Shown here: piece by piece, positions 16,948-55,376 of the stretch
How positions within the stretch are numbered: the first letter of the stretch is position 1
Layout: the number at the start of each line of letters is the position of its first letter
Assembly: GCA_947488435.1 (NCBI GenBank)
Contig: CANKZG010000001.1
Location: 1,728,308 to 1,792,307 of the forward strand
Direction: 5' to 3'
DNA: 64,000 nucleotides
Source: an uncultured Flavobacteriaceae bacterium
Lineage (GTDB): Bacteria; Bacteroidota; Bacteroidia; Flavobacteriales; Flavobacteriaceae
Program-made: the position numbers and the translations under genes
Notes under the pieces: generated by a model
What the model saw: the letters and a program-made list of their open reading frames with translations, nothing else
The model's database searches: none
Told to the model about the DNA's origin: nothing

Positions 16948-16960
16948 TCAACCTAATATT

Positions 16961-17036
16961 ATAGAGGAAGGATTTGACTGATTGCAACCTCCCATGCTGA
17001 AAACAACTTGGTATGGATAAAAATGCTAAAGCAGTG
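16961..17036 (+). promoter_or_regulatory. SAM-II-type riboswitch upstream of metK, with an inserted hairpin
   Basis: P1 is GAGG (16964-16967) with CCTC (16988-16991). Its loop, AAGGATTTGACTGATTGCAA, closely follows the SAM-II loop pattern GATTTAACC..ATTGCAA. The 3' strand ATAAAAATGCTAAAGCAGT holds the invariant GCTAAA (17025-17030). Pseudoknot pairs are consistent: ACTG (16977-16980) with CAGT (17032-17035), and TTGC with GC(T)AA leaving the T bulged as in SAM-II. Unusually, a separate 6-bp hairpin (CCATGC 16992-16997 / GTATGG 17011-17016) sits between P1 and the 3' strand. The SAM-V class shares this core and is the alternative. It would let SAM repress its own synthetase. Confidence 0.8.
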
Positions 17037-17088
17037 TATGCTACTTTACTAGTTTTCGTCAAATTCTCTAGGAAAATTTAAGAAAGAC

Positions 17089-19037: not shown

Positions 19038-19066
19038 CACTCATAACGTTCAAACACGTATTGTAA

Positions 19067-19168
19067 GTTATCAAGAAAGGTGGAGGGATTAGACCCAATG
19101 AAACCTTAGCAACCCTTTGTTCCATATAAAGAAGGTGCTAAATTCTATCCGTAATAGGAATAGATAAC
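19067..19168 (+). promoter_or_regulatory. SAM-I (S-box) riboswitch upstream of the MetX-AK-HSDH fusion gene
   Basis: P1 pairs GTTATC (19067-19072) with GATAAC (19163-19168). Between them are the invariant S-box blocks AAGAAAGGTGGAGGGATTAG, ACCCAATGAAACCTTAGCAACC and AAGGTGCTAAATTC, and a final P4 hairpin. Immediately downstream, AGAAATTAC and GTAATTCT can form a hairpin followed by a T-rich run (TTTTCTTTTT), a plausible terminator for the expression platform. High SAM should therefore shut down aspartate-to-homoserine flux into methionine. Confidence 0.95.
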
Positions 19169-19278
19169 ATTAGAAATTACATTTTTCGTAATTCTCACTT
19201 TTCTTTTTAGCTTTTTATGTTGTTCCAAAATTGGAACTACATCGTACATTTTTGATGTAAAGATGAAGATTAGCTAAA

Positions 19279-33109: not shown

Positions 33110-33231
33110 TCTATTATATTCCTAAGAAATTTATAAAATTTAAAAAGTGAGAGCTTAAAAAAAAGCCACTTTACTTGGTTTTAAATTTCCTGTGCTGTTA
33201 CTTTGTAATCTGTTCATTATTTAATGCAATC

Positions 33232-33335
33232 GTTATCAAGAAAGGTGGAGGGATTAGACCCTATGAAACCTTAGCAACCCTTTACTTCTAAAGAAGGTGC
33301 TACATTCTATCTGCTACTATAGCAGAATAGATAAC
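33232..33335 (+). promoter_or_regulatory. SAM-I (S-box) riboswitch upstream of metH-metF
   Basis: P1 pairs GTTATC (33232-33237) with GATAAC (33330-33335). The core AAGAAAGGTGGAGGGATTAG, ACCCTATGAAACCTTAGCAACC and AAGAAGGTGCTACATTC is almost the same as in the first S-box at 19067, while the P3 and P4 loops differ. A small hairpin (GAAAG-TTGAT-CTTTC) follows; its T-run is weak, so the mode of control is less clear than for the first copy. Confidence 0.95.
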
Positions 33336-33426
33336 AAGATTATAGAAAGTTGATCTTTCGCTCCATTTCATTGATACGATATAAAAAATGCCAATGCTAC
33401 TTTAGGTAGCGGAAGAAGTTATATGT

Positions 33427-49959: not shown

Positions 49960-50151
49960 ATGAATAAAAAAAAAGAAAATAAAGGCAGTATACTATCTGG
50001 TATTGGAGGGTTGTTTACCATTGCCGGAATTGTTTTAATGGTATTGAAAGGCTCAGCCATGGGCTATCTTACAGTAATAATTATAGGCGTTTTTTTAGCA
50101 GCATACGGATTTATGCTCACGGCTAAAGCAGGAAAAAAAGAGGAAGATTAG
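49960..50151 (+). CDS. Small two-helix membrane protein, 63 residues
   Basis: Unrecognised. Charged ends (MNKKKENKG, AGKKEED) enclose two helices (ILSGIGGLFTIAGIVLMVL and YLTVIIIGVFLAAYGFMLTA). It overlaps the 3' end of the convergent gldA by four bases and has no room for a terminator between them. Confidence 0.7.
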   Translation: MNKKKENKGSILSGIGGLFTIAGIVLMVLKGSAMGYLTVIIIGVFLAAYGFMLTAKAGKKEED

Positions 50152-51041
50152 CTGGTAAGTTCCGTAAACAAACTTTCTAAGTTTCTGTTTTTACGGCTTA
50201 ATTGTAGCGTTTTAAGTTCGTTGTCATGCGCAAAATCAAATACGGCAGGTCGCATATCCTGATCTGTACTAAATTGAATTTCGTAAACAAAACCACCGAT
50301 ATTAGTAACCTTGGTTACATGCGGTAATTTTTGAAGCAAGGCTTCTTCCACCCGATAATCAAACTCCACTTCAATAATTTGCTCACCCGAAGTGCGAAGT
50401 TCGGTAAGTTTCTTATCGGCTACCAGTTCTCCTTTATTAATAATAATGACACGATCGCAAACGGCCTCAACTTCCTTCATGATATGGGTAGAAAGTAAAA
50501 TGGTTTTTTGTTTTCCAATGTCTAGAATAAGTTTTCGAATTTCCAACAGTTGATTGGGATCCAAACCGGTAGTAGGTTCATCCAAAATAAGCACCTCCGG
50601 ATCGTGCAGTAATGCGGCAGCCAAACCCACACGTTGACGGTATCCCTTAGAAAGCTGTCCTATTTTTTTATGCGCTTCTGGCGAAAGGCCAGTTTTGTCA
50701 ATCACCAGGGCAATCTGATCTTTGGGAACCCCATATACCGAAGCATTAAAATGCAAATACTCTTTTACATACATATCTAAGTATAAGGGATTGTGTTCCG
50801 GTAGGTACCCAATGCATTTTTGCACTTCATTTTTCTGATCCACCACATCAAAGGTATTTACGGCTGCCTCACCGTCATCGGCACGACTATAAGTCGTTAA
50901 AATCTTCATCATCGTAGATTTCCCGGCACCATTGGGCCCCAAAAAGCCTACGATTTCTCCTTTCTTAATGGAAAAGCTTACGTTATTTAATGCTTTTTGT
51001 GTGCCAAAAGTTTTGGTGATGTTGGTGACCGTGATCGACAT
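50148..51041 (-). CDS. gldA: Gliding-motility ABC transporter ATP-binding protein
   Basis: A 297-residue ABC ATPase with Walker A GPNGAGKST, signature LSKGYRQRVGLAAAL, Walker B VLILDEPTTGLDP and the switch His in LLSTHIMKEV. Length and the GldA-like C-terminal extension (LSRKNRNLESLFTELTS) support GldA, the ATPase needed with GldF and GldG for gliding in flavobacteria; gldF/gldG are not in this window, so a related export ATPase remains possible. Confidence 0.87.
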   Translation of the reverse strand: MSITVTNITKTFGTQKALNNVSFSIKKGEIVGFLGPNGAGKSTMMKILTTYSRADDGEAAVNTFDVVDQKNEVQKCIGYLPEHNPLYLDMYVKEYLHFNASVYGVPKDQIALVIDKTGLSPEAHKKIGQLSKGYRQRVGLAAALLHDPEVLILDEPTTGLDPNQLLEIRKLILDIGKQKTILLSTHIMKEVEAVCDRVIIINKGELVADKKLTELRTSGEQIIEVEFDYRVEEALLQKLPHVTKVTNIGGFVYEIQFSTDQDMRPAVFDFAHDNELKTLQLSRKNRNLESLFTELTS

Positions 51042-51229
51042 GAATGCTTTTTTGTGTAAAAATAATAATAAATACAGCAGCAGCAGTATTTCGACATTCG
51101 TAAAAGAGCAGTCTTTTTAGTGAATTATATGTAGCTATTATTTGAAAAAACCGCAGATTTGAAAAAATGTTCTGATTAAATATGATTTTTAAATTTAATA
51201 GGTATCTTAGCCACTTAAATCAAAACAAA

Positions 51230-51298
51230 ATGCGCAATTATTTCTGGAGCAGCTTTTACTTTTACTTCTTTTTTAAAAGAAGTACGGGACTGTTCTAG
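51230..51298 (+). CDS. Phe/Tyr-rich leader peptide of the pheA-tyrA operon
   Basis: A 22-codon frame, ATG to TAG. Its first 18 residues are MRNYFWSSFYFYFFFKRS. Of 22 residues seven are Phe, three Tyr and one Trp, concentrated at positions 4-15, immediately before the hairpin segments of an attenuator and 82 bases ahead of the pheA start. This is the composition and position expected of a regulatory leader for phenylalanine/tyrosine synthesis. The peptide itself needs no function beyond ribosome stalling. Confidence 0.85.
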   Translation: MRNYFWSSFYFYFFFKRSTGLF

Positions 51299-51354
51299 GT
51301 AATATTTGTATACCATATAGATGAAAGTCCCGAGCCAATCGGGACTTTTTTTTT
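51264..51354 (+). promoter_or_regulatory. Ribosome-dependent transcription attenuator of the Phe/Tyr operon
   Basis: Three exclusive pairings are seen. First, ACTTCTTTT (51264-51272) with AAAAGAAGT (51275-51283), inside the Phe codon run. Second, an antiterminator: CGGGACT-G-TTC (51285-51295, in the last leader codons) with GAA-AGTCCCG (51323-51332), 10 bp with one bulged G. Third, the terminator AAAGTCCCG (51324-51332) with CGGGACTTT (51340-51348) and a T-run. A ribosome stalled at scarce Phe/Tyr leaves the antiterminator free; one that reaches the TAG covers it and lets the terminator form. Confidence 0.85.
51324..51354 (+). terminator. Attenuator terminator before pheA
   Basis: A perfect 9-bp stem AAAGTCCCG / CGGGACTTT with loop AGCCAAT and nine T in a row at the end. 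It lies 26 bases upstream of the pheA GTG, where an unregulated terminator would silence the operon. Confidence 0.9.
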
Positions 51355-51379
51355 ATGACCATTTTAAAGTGCGTACAAC

Positions 51380-52207
51380 GTGAATTCGAAAATTGCGATA
51401 CAAGGTATTAAAGGCTCAAACCACCATCAGGTGGCGATGAGTTATTTTGGAAAAGACATCGATTTAGTACCATGTTTGTCCTTTGATGCTTTGGTTGCTA
51501 GGCTTTTACAAAAAAAGGCCGATATCGGTATCATGGCTATCGAAAACTCTATTGCCGGTTCTATTATACCCAACTATGCGCTGGTTTATCATAACAAGCT
51601 GCATATTATTGGTGAATACTACCTGAATATACACCATAACTTAATGACCTTAAACGGAGTGAAACTAGAAGACGTGAAAGAGGTACATTCGCATCCTATG
51701 GCATTGTTGCAATGCAAGGATTTTTTCAAGCAATATCCGGATATAAAATTAGTAGAAGATGTAGATACGGCGGAGACCGCACAACGCATTCAAGAGCAAC
51801 AACTCGATACCATTGCTGCGATAGCCCCAGAGGTGGCAGCAAAACTTTATAATTTGGAAATTATCGCACCGGAAATTCAAACCATAAAAAATAATGCCAC
51901 CCGTTTTATTGTAGTTAAAACAGCGAATAAAGTAATCCCAAAGGAAGTCATTGATAAAGCCTCGCTACGCTTTGTTACAGAGCATAAACGTGGGAGTTTG
52001 GCAGCCGTTTTAAATGTAATGAGTGATTGTAATCTTAGTTTAACAAAAATCCAGTCTTTACCTATTATTGAAACTCCTTGGAAGTATGCATTTTTTGTAG
52101 ATGTAACCTTTGAATCGTATGAGCATTATGCTAAGGCAAAAGCGTTGTTGGAAATCATGGCGGAAGACTTTAGAGTATTGGGCGAATATAAAAACGAACT
52201 TTTATGA
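51380..52207 (+). CDS. pheA: Prephenate dehydratase
   Basis: A 275-residue enzyme converting prephenate to phenylpyruvate. The catalytic domain has ADIGIMAIENSIAGSI and the NNATRFIVV motif with the essential TRF; residues about 195-275 are an ACT domain (HKRGSLAAVLNVMSDCNLSL, LPIIETPWKYAFFVDV) that in the family senses phenylalanine. It lacks a fused chorismate mutase; that activity is on the DAHP synthase gene downstream. Start is GTG, just after the attenuator. It overlaps the next gene by four bases. Confidence 0.95.
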   Translation: MNSKIAIQGIKGSNHHQVAMSYFGKDIDLVPCLSFDALVARLLQKKADIGIMAIENSIAGSIIPNYALVYHNKLHIIGEYYLNIHHNLMTLNGVKLEDVKEVHSHPMALLQCKDFFKQYPDIKLVEDVDTAETAQRIQEQQLDTIAAIAPEVAAKLYNLEIIAPEIQTIKNNATRFIVVKTANKVIPKEVIDKASLRFVTEHKRGSLAAVLNVMSDCNLSLTKIQSLPIIETPWKYAFFVDVTFESYEHYAKAKALLEIMAEDFRVLGEYKNELL

Positions 52208-53349
52208 TTAGTACGGCAGATCGGTTACAAACGGTACAGGAATATTACTTCTCTAAAAAATTACGGGAAGTTCGGGGCTTACAAAGTGCCGGTCGACCTA
52301 TTATTAATATGGGGATCGGAAGTCCGGATTTACCTGCCGCTCCAGCCGTGGTTTCCGCTTTGGAAACAGCCATGCAAGATGCCGGAGCACACCAATACCA
52401 AAGCTATCAAGGACTACTGGAATTACGGGAATCGATCGCTGATTTTTATCGCACTAAATTTTCAGTAACATTGGATCCTGCAAGCGAAATTCTACCCCTT
52501 ATGGGTTCTAAAGAAGGGATCATGCATATTAGCATGGCTTTTTTAAATCCGGGAGACGAGGTACTGATTCCCAATCCGGGATATCCAACTTATAGTGCAG
52601 TAACTAAACTAGTGCAAGCCGAACCCAAGTACTACGATTTGAAGGAAACGATGGGATGGTTTCCGGATATTAATGCTTTGGAAAAAGAGGATCTTTCTAA
52701 GGTGAAATTAATGTGGGTGAGTTATCCGCATATGCCAACGGGAGCAACCGCAAACCATCAACAATTTCAGCAGCTTATTGCCTTTGCAAAAAAACACCAG
52801 ATACTGTTGGTTAATGATAACCCCTATAGTTTTGTGCTAAATACGGAACCTAGGAGTTTGTTGAAAATAGCAGGGGCAAAGGAAACTGTATTGGAATTGA
52901 ATTCGTTGAGTAAAACCTTCAATATGGCTGGCTGGCGTGTGGGGATGTTATTGGGGAGCGAAGCCCATATTAATGCGGTACTTAAAGTGAAGAGTAATAT
53001 GGACTCTGGAATGTTTTACGGAATCCAAAAAGGAGCAATAGCAGCCTTAAAAAGTGATGAAACCTGGTATAAAGAGCTCAATGCGATTTATGCTGAAAGA
53101 AGAGCATTGCTATTTGCAATGGCAGATAAACTAGGGTGTACTTATGATACAAATGCGGTTGGCATGTTTGTTTGGGCAAAACTACCAGAGAATGCGGCTT
53201 CCTGCGAAACTTTTATTGATAAGTTACTGTATGATAAAGACATTTTTATCACTCCCGGAAGTATTTTTGGAAGTAATGGAGAAGGATATATTCGTTTCTC
53301 TTTATGTGTAACGGCAATAAAAATTAAGGAAGCAATAGATCGATTATAA
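52204..53349 (+). CDS. Class I/II PLP-dependent aminotransferase (probable aromatic or prephenate aminotransferase)
   Basis: A 381-residue fold-type I aminotransferase with MGIGSPDLP, NPGYPTYSAV, VNDNPYSF and the Schiff-base lysine in NSLSKTFNMAGWRVG; RFSLC near the C-terminus carries the substrate-carboxylate Arg. In this operon it most likely makes phenylalanine and tyrosine from phenylpyruvate and hydroxyphenylpyruvate. Relatives include LL-diaminopimelate and aspartate aminotransferases, so the substrate is assigned from context. Confidence 0.88.
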   Translation: MISTADRLQTVQEYYFSKKLREVRGLQSAGRPIINMGIGSPDLPAAPAVVSALETAMQDAGAHQYQSYQGLLELRESIADFYRTKFSVTLDPASEILPLMGSKEGIMHISMAFLNPGDEVLIPNPGYPTYSAVTKLVQAEPKYYDLKETMGWFPDINALEKEDLSKVKLMWVSYPHMPTGATANHQQFQQLIAFAKKHQILLVNDNPYSFVLNTEPRSLLKIAGAKETVLELNSLSKTFNMAGWRVGMLLGSEAHINAVLKVKSNMDSGMFYGIQKGAIAALKSDETWYKELNAIYAERRALLFAMADKLGCTYDTNAVGMFVWAKLPENAASCETFIDKLLYDKDIFITPGSIFGSNGEGYIRFSLCVTAIKIKEAIDRL

Positions 53350-53394: not shown

Positions 53395-54243
53395 ATGAAT
53401 GTATTTGTAATAGGAATTGGTTTGATTGGAGGCTCTATGGTAAAGGATATCAAAATTGCATATCCTGATACTACCGTTTATGGTATTGACGCCAATGAAG
53501 CACATTTGGAAGAAGCATTTTCCTTGGGGCTTATTGATAAAAAATCGAGTTATGCAGAATTATCAGTTGCAGATGTAGTTATTGTAAGTATTCCGGTAGA
53601 CGCAACTCTAAAAGAGTTGCCAAAAATATTGGATGGCGTACAAGAAACCGCTATTGTTTTTGATGTGGGTTCTACCAAACTTCAGGTATGTGAGCATATT
53701 GCATCCCACCCCAAGCGAAGAAATTTTTTGGCAAGTCATCCTATTTCCGGAACAGAGTTTTCTGGACCAACCGCAGCCATTGAAGGTTTGTACAAGGGAA
53801 AAACCAACATCATTTGTGAGGTAGAAAAAACAGCGTTTCGATTACAAGAAAAAGCGCTAGAGATCTTTCAAAAATTGGGTATGCGAATCCGGTATATGAA
53901 TCCAGAAGCACACGACAAGCATATTGCCTATGTATCGCACTTATCGCATATCAGTTCTTTTATGTTGGGAAAAACAGTGATTGAAAAAGAAAAAAATGAA
54001 CGCGATATTTTCGATATGGCGGGAAGTGGTTTTGAAAGTACGGTGCGCTTAGCGAAAAGCTCTCCGGCAATGTGGACTCCGATCTTTGAGTTTAATAAAG
54101 AGAACGTAGTGGAAACCTTGGAAGAGTATATTCAAAATTTAGAGCATTTTAAACAAATGTTGGAAACGGATGATTATGCAGGAATTTATAATGCCATGGA
54201 AGAAACAAATAGAATTAAAGAGATTTTAAAAGGAATATCTTAA
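53395..54243 (+). CDS. tyrA: Prephenate dehydrogenase
   Basis: A 282-residue NAD-dependent enzyme converting prephenate to 4-hydroxyphenylpyruvate. It opens with the Rossmann motif VIGIGLIGGSM, has DVGSTK, SHPISGTEFSGP and the substrate-binding segment HDKHIAYVSHLSHISSFML with its paired His residues. No ACT or fused chorismate mutase domain is present. Confidence 0.95.
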   Translation: MNVFVIGIGLIGGSMVKDIKIAYPDTTVYGIDANEAHLEEAFSLGLIDKKSSYAELSVADVVIVSIPVDATLKELPKILDGVQETAIVFDVGSTKLQVCEHIASHPKRRNFLASHPISGTEFSGPTAAIEGLYKGKTNIICEVEKTAFRLQEKALEIFQKLGMRIRYMNPEAHDKHIAYVSHLSHISSFMLGKTVIEKEKNERDIFDMAGSGFESTVRLAKSSPAMWTPIFEFNKENVVETLEEYIQNLEHFKQMLETDDYAGIYNAMEETNRIKEILKGIS

Positions 54244-54293: not shown

Positions 54294-55376
54294 GTGGAGA
54301 ACTCGAAAAAATTAAGAACCTGGTTAGATGATATGGGATTGGAACATCCCTTAGTAATTGCGGGACCTTGTAGTGCAGAAACGGAAGAACAAGTACTGAA
54401 AGTAGCACACGAATTAAAAGATACCGATGTAAGCTATTACCGTGCCGGTATATGGAAACCCAGAACGCGCCCGGGAAATTTTGAAGGGGTTGGTGCTATT
54501 GGTTTAAAATGGTTGCAGAAGGTAAAAGAAGAAACCGGATTGAAAACGGCAACAGAAGTTGCCAATAGAGCACATGTGCAACTAGCTTTGGAACACGATG
54601 TAGATCTACTATGGATTGGAGCGCGTTCTACCGTTAGCCCATTTATTGTTCAGGAGATTGCAGATGCTTTGGAGGGGACGGATAAGGTAGTACTAATTAA
54701 GAACCCTGTAAACCCCGATTTACCCCTATGGTTGGGTGCTGTGGAGCGACTGCATACCGCCAATATTGAAAAATTAGGGGTAATACACCGCGGATTTTCT
54801 ACCTACGAAAAAACCAAATATCGAAATATTCCAGAATGGCAATTGGCGATAGAATTGCAGAGTCGTTTCCCAGATTTGCCCTTAATTAATGATCCATCAC
54901 ATATTACTGGAAAACGAGATATGATTTTTGATGTATCGCAAACCGCTTTAGATCTTAATTTTGACGGTTTAATGATCGAGACGCATACAGATCCAGATAA
55001 TGCATGGAGTGATGCGGCACAACAGGTAACCCCTTCAAGATTGGTACAAATTATGGAAGACCTTAAAATTAGAAAAGAAACGGACGTTGAGCTGGATTAC
55101 AATACAAAAATGAGTACGCTTCGCGCTCAGATTGATGTAATTGATAATCAGCTCATCGAAACTTTAGGAAAACGAATGAAAGTTTCAGATACAATTGGAG
55201 CCCTAAAAAAAGAACGTAATGTAGCCGTATTGCAGACCAATAGATGGAATGCAATATTGGGTAATATGATTCTGGAAGGAGAATCCAAAGGCCTAAGTGA
55301 GGAATTTGTGTTGCGGATGTTCAAGGCAATTCACCAGGAATCGATCAATCATCAAGAGAAGATAATTAAAGGTTAG
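54294..55376 (+). CDS. Bifunctional DAHP synthase / chorismate mutase (type II, AroQ)
   Basis: A 360-residue fusion, starting at GTG. Residues about 1-265 are a type I beta DAHP synthase (VIAGPCSAETEEQV, AGIWKPRTRPGNFEG, LWIGARSTV, LPLINDPSHITGKR, DGLMIETHTDPDNAWSD); residues about 280-360 are an AroQ chorismate mutase (MSTLRAQIDVIDNQLIETLG, KRMKVSDTIGALKKE). It provides the first shikimate step and the chorismate-to-prephenate step feeding pheA and tyrA. A terminator follows six bases after the stop. Confidence 0.96.
   Translation: MENSKKLRTWLDDMGLEHPLVIAGPCSAETEEQVLKVAHELKDTDVSYYRAGIWKPRTRPGNFEGVGAIGLKWLQKVKEETGLKTATEVANRAHVQLALEHDVDLLWIGARSTVSPFIVQEIADALEGTDKVVLIKNPVNPDLPLWLGAVERLHTANIEKLGVIHRGFSTYEKTKYRNIPEWQLAIELQSRFPDLPLINDPSHITGKRDMIFDVSQTALDLNFDGLMIETHTDPDNAWSDAAQQVTPSRLVQIMEDLKIRKETDVELDYNTKMSTLRAQIDVIDNQLIETLGKRMKVSDTIGALKKERNVAVLQTNRWNAILGNMILEGESKGLSEEFVLRMFKAIHQESINHQEKIIKG

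Follow-up and report, generated by a model that had tools for sequence, protein, structure and literature searches.

A probable ribosome-mediated attenuator with a Phe/Tyr-rich leader peptide upstream of pheA in Flavobacteriaceae

Background

In Escherichia coli, pheA is preceded by an attenuator (pheL) composed of a Phe-rich leader, an antiterminator and a terminator, and this class of switch has long been known. Lopatovskaya et al. 2010, a large survey of attenuation, may list Bacteroidetes cases.

For Bacteroidota, leader-like short frames are mentioned in general terms in a transcriptome paper on B. thetaiotaomicron (PMC7366714). Closest to the present locus is the main text of Guerin et al. 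2021 (PMC9723704), which gives clues that leader peptides attenuate amino-acid operons in Flavobacterium psychrophilum and describes structured 5' elements of pheA and hisG that are present in other Flavobacteriaceae genera. Their pheA element belongs to the same family and the same gene as the attenuator described here, but the main text does not call it an attenuator and gives no frame, alternative helices or covariation; its supplement may differ. The pheA case in flavobacteria was partly announced before, and the initial annotation of this DNA, to which no described flavobacterial example was known, is to that extent anticipated by what the main text of Guerin et al. reports. To the extent that the literature could be checked, what is new is the explicit mechanism, together with the three-way covariation and the class-wide range.

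The window is the whole stretch of DNA analysed, 64,000 nucleotides (64 kb) from an uncultured Flavobacteriaceae bacterium. Like the E. coli attenuator, it has a Phe-rich leader, an antiterminator and a terminator before pheA; unlike that system and the Rfam family RF01859 (Phe_leader), its leader also has Tyr and Trp codons and its operon further includes tyrA and DAHP synthase-chorismate mutase. RF01859 matches 51226-51354 on the correct strand over model positions 1-125 of 125 (27.4 bits, E 0.0095), and since this is below the gathering score of 55, membership is not claimed.

Methods

The comparison used the regions upstream of pheA in 80 named relatives, in two family samples, and in class, order and phylum samples; the samples are biased to high-scoring PDT matches and are not random draws. 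To score as positive, a region had to contain a reading frame 14-36 codons long that encodes 7 or more aromatic residues and, after it, a T-run hairpin. Covariation was examined in a MAFFT alignment of 104 distinct family sequences. In the masked-ribosome folding, the transcript ended at 51334 (segment 4 not yet made) and the ribosome was given a footprint of 14 nt on each side of the start of the A site, using equilibrium energies.

Organization of the leader region and operon

The features of the locus are listed in Table 1. The leader frame encodes 22 residues and ends with TAG at 51296-51298; the strand GAA-AGTCCCG lies at 51323-51332, a second copy of CGGGACT at 51340-51346 and the T9 run at 51346-51354, so that the terminator as a whole occupies 51323-51354, and the GTG of pheA follows 25 nt past the T run. 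A recount agreed with the initial annotation on the 22-codon frame with its 7 Phe, 3 Tyr and 1 Trp and on the positions of CGGGACT-G-TTC, GAA-AGTCCCG, the repeated CGGGACT and T9. The fold also contains the hairpin that it placed within the Phe codons, at about 51264-51283. Its terminator, a stem plus T9 before pheA, also stands, except that the stem, given as 9 bp, folds slightly longer (11 bp, counting weak basal pairs; -16.7 kcal/mol).

Table 1. Coordinates of the leader features and of the downstream genes in the window
Feature	Position	Strand	Basis and remarks
Predicted promoter -7 box TATCTTAG	51203..51210	+	TAnnTTAG, Bacteroidota-type TAnnTTTG; putative promoter role
Leader peptide frame MRNYFWSSFYFYFFFKRSTGLF and stop	51230..51298	+	7 Phe, 3 Tyr, 1 Trp
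Segment 1	51234..51252	+	predicted to pair with 51290-51309 and sequester segment 2 (MFE fold)
Phe/Tyr codon block (codons 9-15), likely stalling region	51254..51274	+	codon conservation, masked-ribosome folding
Small hairpin within Phe codons (loop end of 1:2 structure)	51264..51283	+	MFE fold, pairing in alignment
Segment 2, antiterminator strand CGGGACTGTTC	51285..51295	+	CGGGACT-G-TTC, pairs with 51323-51332
Segment 3, shared strand GAAAGTCCCGA	51323..51333	+	antiterminator 3' side and terminator 5' arm
Segment 4 and T9 (terminator 3' arm, U run)	51339..51354	+	stem -16.7 kcal/mol
pheA, prephenate dehydratase	51380..52207	+	GTG start; PF00800 E 1.9e-58, ORF
Aminotransferase	52204..53349	+	ORF; name from initial annotation and sequence; 4-nt overlap with pheA
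tyrA, prephenate dehydrogenase	53395..54243	+	ORF; name from initial annotation and sequence
DAHP synthase-chorismate mutase	54294..55376	+	ORF; name from initial annotation and sequence

In 96 of 108 relatives a box TAnnTT[TA]G, the form expected for Bacteroidota promoters, lies no more than 50 nt ahead of the leader ATG, usually at a distance of 17-19 nt; shuffled windows contain it in 8%. The conserved start and this box point to the ATG at 51230, and a longer leader starting from the in-frame ATG at 51182 was ruled out. In more than 90% of the aligned relatives, five consecutive A occur some 36-40 nt ahead of the TAnnTTAG box and may form an upstream promoter element. A phage origin was considered and rejected, no match being found.

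The pheA product shares 73-79% identity with its counterparts in Allomuricauda, Flagellimonas, Maribacter, Zobellia, Muriicola and their kin. At all 77 loci where the four genes were seen, pheA is followed by the aminotransferase, tyrA and DAHP synthase-chorismate mutase in that order, and a single switch would thus set the flux into and through the Phe/Tyr branch.

Folding of the leader and the alternative helices

The 145-nt leader folds at -44.9 kcal/mol, compared with -23.1 +/- 3.5 kcal/mol for 200 dinucleotide shuffles (z -6.3), none of which was as stable. The fold includes a helix that is absent from the initial annotation, formed by 51234-51252 with 51290-51309 (helix 1:2). By its predicted pairing this helix can pre-empt the antiterminator, and it would complete the classical set of helices 1:2, 2:3 and 3:4. 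Taken in isolation, these have energies of -24.8 (including the inner hairpin), -16.6 and -16.7 kcal/mol respectively.

With a masked ribosome whose A site lay at any of the modelled codons 4 to 14, the antiterminator formed with a probability of 0.96-0.99, as against 0.00 for a ribosome at the stop codon, in a model where footprint and kinetics are assumptions. Segment 2 was free with the A site in codons 9-14 of the Phe/Tyr block, but once the A site reached codon 15 the model gave no antiterminator. The masked-ribosome folding thereby reproduces in silico the expected switch. Folding of the full transcript favours the terminator, and the ground state without a ribosome is 1:2 plus 3:4. For the transcript to 51334 without a ribosome, 2:3 is still favoured at equilibrium (0.76), from which we infer that default termination would depend on the earlier formation of 1:2.

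Conservation among relatives

An aromatic frame and a terminator precede pheA in 79 of 79 testable named relatives (at one locus the upstream DNA was too short) and in 65 of 69 sampled family genomes (26/29 and 39/40). Outside the family the element was found in 14 of 27 genomes of other families in the class, and its absence from about half of these was counted against the attenuator. It was found in 3 of 26 genomes from other families of the order, a sample rich in 0.6 Mb genomes, and in 0 of 28 genomes sampled from other classes of the phylum. The reverse complements of the upstream regions gave zero full matches in every group, and shuffled upstream regions gave an aromatic ORF with a terminator in 0 to 0.25%.

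In two family genomes (L087, L224) the search upstream of pheA gave no aromatic leader, and these are candidate losses. Separately, in another Flavobacteriales family (f2), the loci L111, L139-L146, L151, L153 and L160 carry a very divergent prephenate dehydratase, 28-32% identical to that of the window, and no leader, which suggests gene replacement and loss of the switch.

Selection on the aromatic codons

Such a strongly structured leader, with a conserved hairpin in the Phe codons that itself forces a T-rich sequence, could also be read as a terminator that responds to binding of a ligand, a protein or a tRNA, in the manner of a riboswitch or T-box, the aromatic frame then being a by-product of T-rich structured RNA. 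We judge this to be very improbable. A search of 51150-51420 against Rfam gave no riboswitch or T-box match above the gathering score, whereas the codons bear the marks of coding selection. For the seven codons of the aromatic block in 92 leaders, minor alleles fall at the third position in 82 cases against 29 at the first and 23 at the second, and Phe and Tyr are retained through exchange of TTT/TTC and TAT/TAC. The Trp codon is retained in 72 of these leaders, and in 19 of the 20 others it is replaced by Phe or Tyr. Aromatic richness also persists in distant leaders (e.g. MKFNNAYFYGYYFYFTSKSRD, MKRFNTYFWFYYYFFKALPGFERVAVCC), despite their other sequence and structure and without conservation of residue order, while the leaders of near relatives (e.g. 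MTKTYFWNGFYFYFFFKRGTGLF, MTKQYFWNGFYFYFFFKRGTGLL) are well conserved as peptides.

Covariation of the hairpins

Changes on both sides were observed for 8 of 10 pairs of the terminator and 9 of 10 pairs of the antiterminator (51285-51295 with 51323-51332), compared with shuffle means of 3.1 and 3.5; these counts, which may be inflated by shared ancestry, were equalled by 0 of 500 shuffles. Slid helices pair far less than the true positions, and the result was nearly unchanged with 56 representatives of less than 80% identity.

The joint change of segments 2, 3 and 4 is the strongest point seen in the alignment. Such three-way changes comprise CGGAACT/AGTTCCG/CGGAACT, CGAGACT/AGTCTCG/CGAGACT, CAGGACT/AGTCCTG/CAGGGCT and TAGGATT/AATCCTG/CAGGATT (segments 2/3/4), and they fit attenuation because attenuation predicts one strand that pairs with two partners in turn. 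Of 21 divergent leaders, each tested singly, 15 show significant pairing between a segment 2 and the terminator arm of the same leader; for instance, in L159, where the terminator sequence is unlike that of the window, GAGCGGTC pairs with GACCGCTC. Conservation of helix 1:2 is moderate (58% of cells paired, versus 30-52% when slid), and the hairpin in the Phe codons, with 92% of cells paired, is largely made of U-A and U-G pairs and hence gives weak covariation evidence.

Another possibility is that the leader peptide works in trans as a small protein in its own right, with the terminator as a partial stop only. The good conservation of the peptide among near relatives is in favour of this reading, as is the precedent of peTrpL of Sinorhizobium meliloti, a leader peptide for which a trans role is reported (PMC7298713). 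It nevertheless leaves the three-way covariation unexplained, and the distant leaders retain aromatic richness without residue order. We therefore give it even less credit than regulation by a ligand, although a trans-acting peptide and attenuation could be compatible.

Reinitiation has been proposed for Bacteroidetes leader genes, whose distance to the following gene peaks at 11-14 bp (PMC4833913), and the short frame might by analogy serve translational coupling at pheA instead of attenuation; with a gap of 81 nt and an intervening terminator at this locus, and with the aromatic codons and the antiterminator covariation left unexplained, this is hardly credible. It is equally hard to credit that the hairpin, although a good intrinsic terminator, merely ends an upstream transcript, since it lies downstream of the conserved promoter box and ahead of pheA, and shows covariation with a segment of the leader, and it cannot belong to the neighbouring gene, which lies divergently on the opposite strand (50148-51041, minus).

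Proposed mechanism

The operon from pheA to DAHP synthase-chorismate mutase, including the aminotransferase and tyrA, is very probably controlled by a ribosome-mediated transcription attenuator. The initial annotation had read the element as a Phe/Tyr leader-peptide attenuator; this reading is supported by the conserved frame and by covarying, mutually exclusive hairpins, and the two comparisons that it had proposed bear it out, the aromatic frame being kept in nearly all Flavobacteriaceae sampled and compensatory changes occurring in both the terminator and the antiterminator.

In the cell, the leader would be translated by a ribosome trailing RNA polymerase along its 22 codons, and stalling or its absence would place read-through under the control of Phe and Tyr. 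When charged Phe- and Tyr-tRNA are ample, the ribosome would reach the stop codon at 51296 and cover segment 2; segments 3 and 4 would then pair, the terminator would form and transcription would end before pheA. A shortage of charged Phe- or Tyr-tRNA would stall the ribosome in the Phe/Tyr block; segment 2 would stay uncovered and pair with segment 3 as soon as the latter emerges, so that no terminator would form and the operon would be transcribed. If no ribosome is present, helix 1:2 would sequester segment 2 and termination would be the default.

A modelled stall at the Trp codon (codon 6) also frees segment 2, which makes Trp sensing possible, though unproven. Sensing of three amino acids through this mostly conserved codon would match the control that the operon has over the entry enzyme, DAHP synthase. 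More tentatively, and with rather less than even confidence, we propose that the leader is a pooled sensor of Phe, Tyr and Trp, an old feature of Bacteroidia and one of a set of his, trp and phe-tyr attenuators in the phylum.

Other leaders in the genome

Two further leaders of the same genome share the plan of the pheA leader (a short frame with cognate codons in a row, a T-run hairpin after it, and then the operon's first gene) but concern other amino acids and operons. About 250-310 nt before a HisG match (L234, G000:C2), a His leader MRNRNTHHHFYTCTQAS (HHH) is followed by a T-run hairpin and hisG, likely a second attenuator. About 120-180 nt before an Anth_synt_I_N match (L235, G000:C7), a Trp leader MKIRTLNTWWWKNLRCKS (WWW) is followed by a T-run hairpin and trpE, likely a third. 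These matching His and Trp leaders count in favour of the attenuator reading at pheA, and attenuation of this kind seems to be in wider use in the organism; no convincing attenuator leader was found before ilvD and pheS in the same genome.

As a separate observation, Rfam places two SAM (S box) riboswitches (19065-19170 and 33230-33337) and one SAM-II riboswitch (16958-17039) in the window, two different SAM-sensing classes thus lying near each other within 64 kb.

Conclusions

With the pheA leader, ribosome-mediated attenuation in Bacteroidota gains an explicit and testable example that is deeply conserved; as far as could be checked, this form of control is otherwise documented there in passing. 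The leader is a likely explanation of the 5' element of pheA in Flavobacterium psychrophilum, and its alignment could found a new Rfam family. Such an attenuator implies a close coupling of transcription and translation in Bacteroidota.
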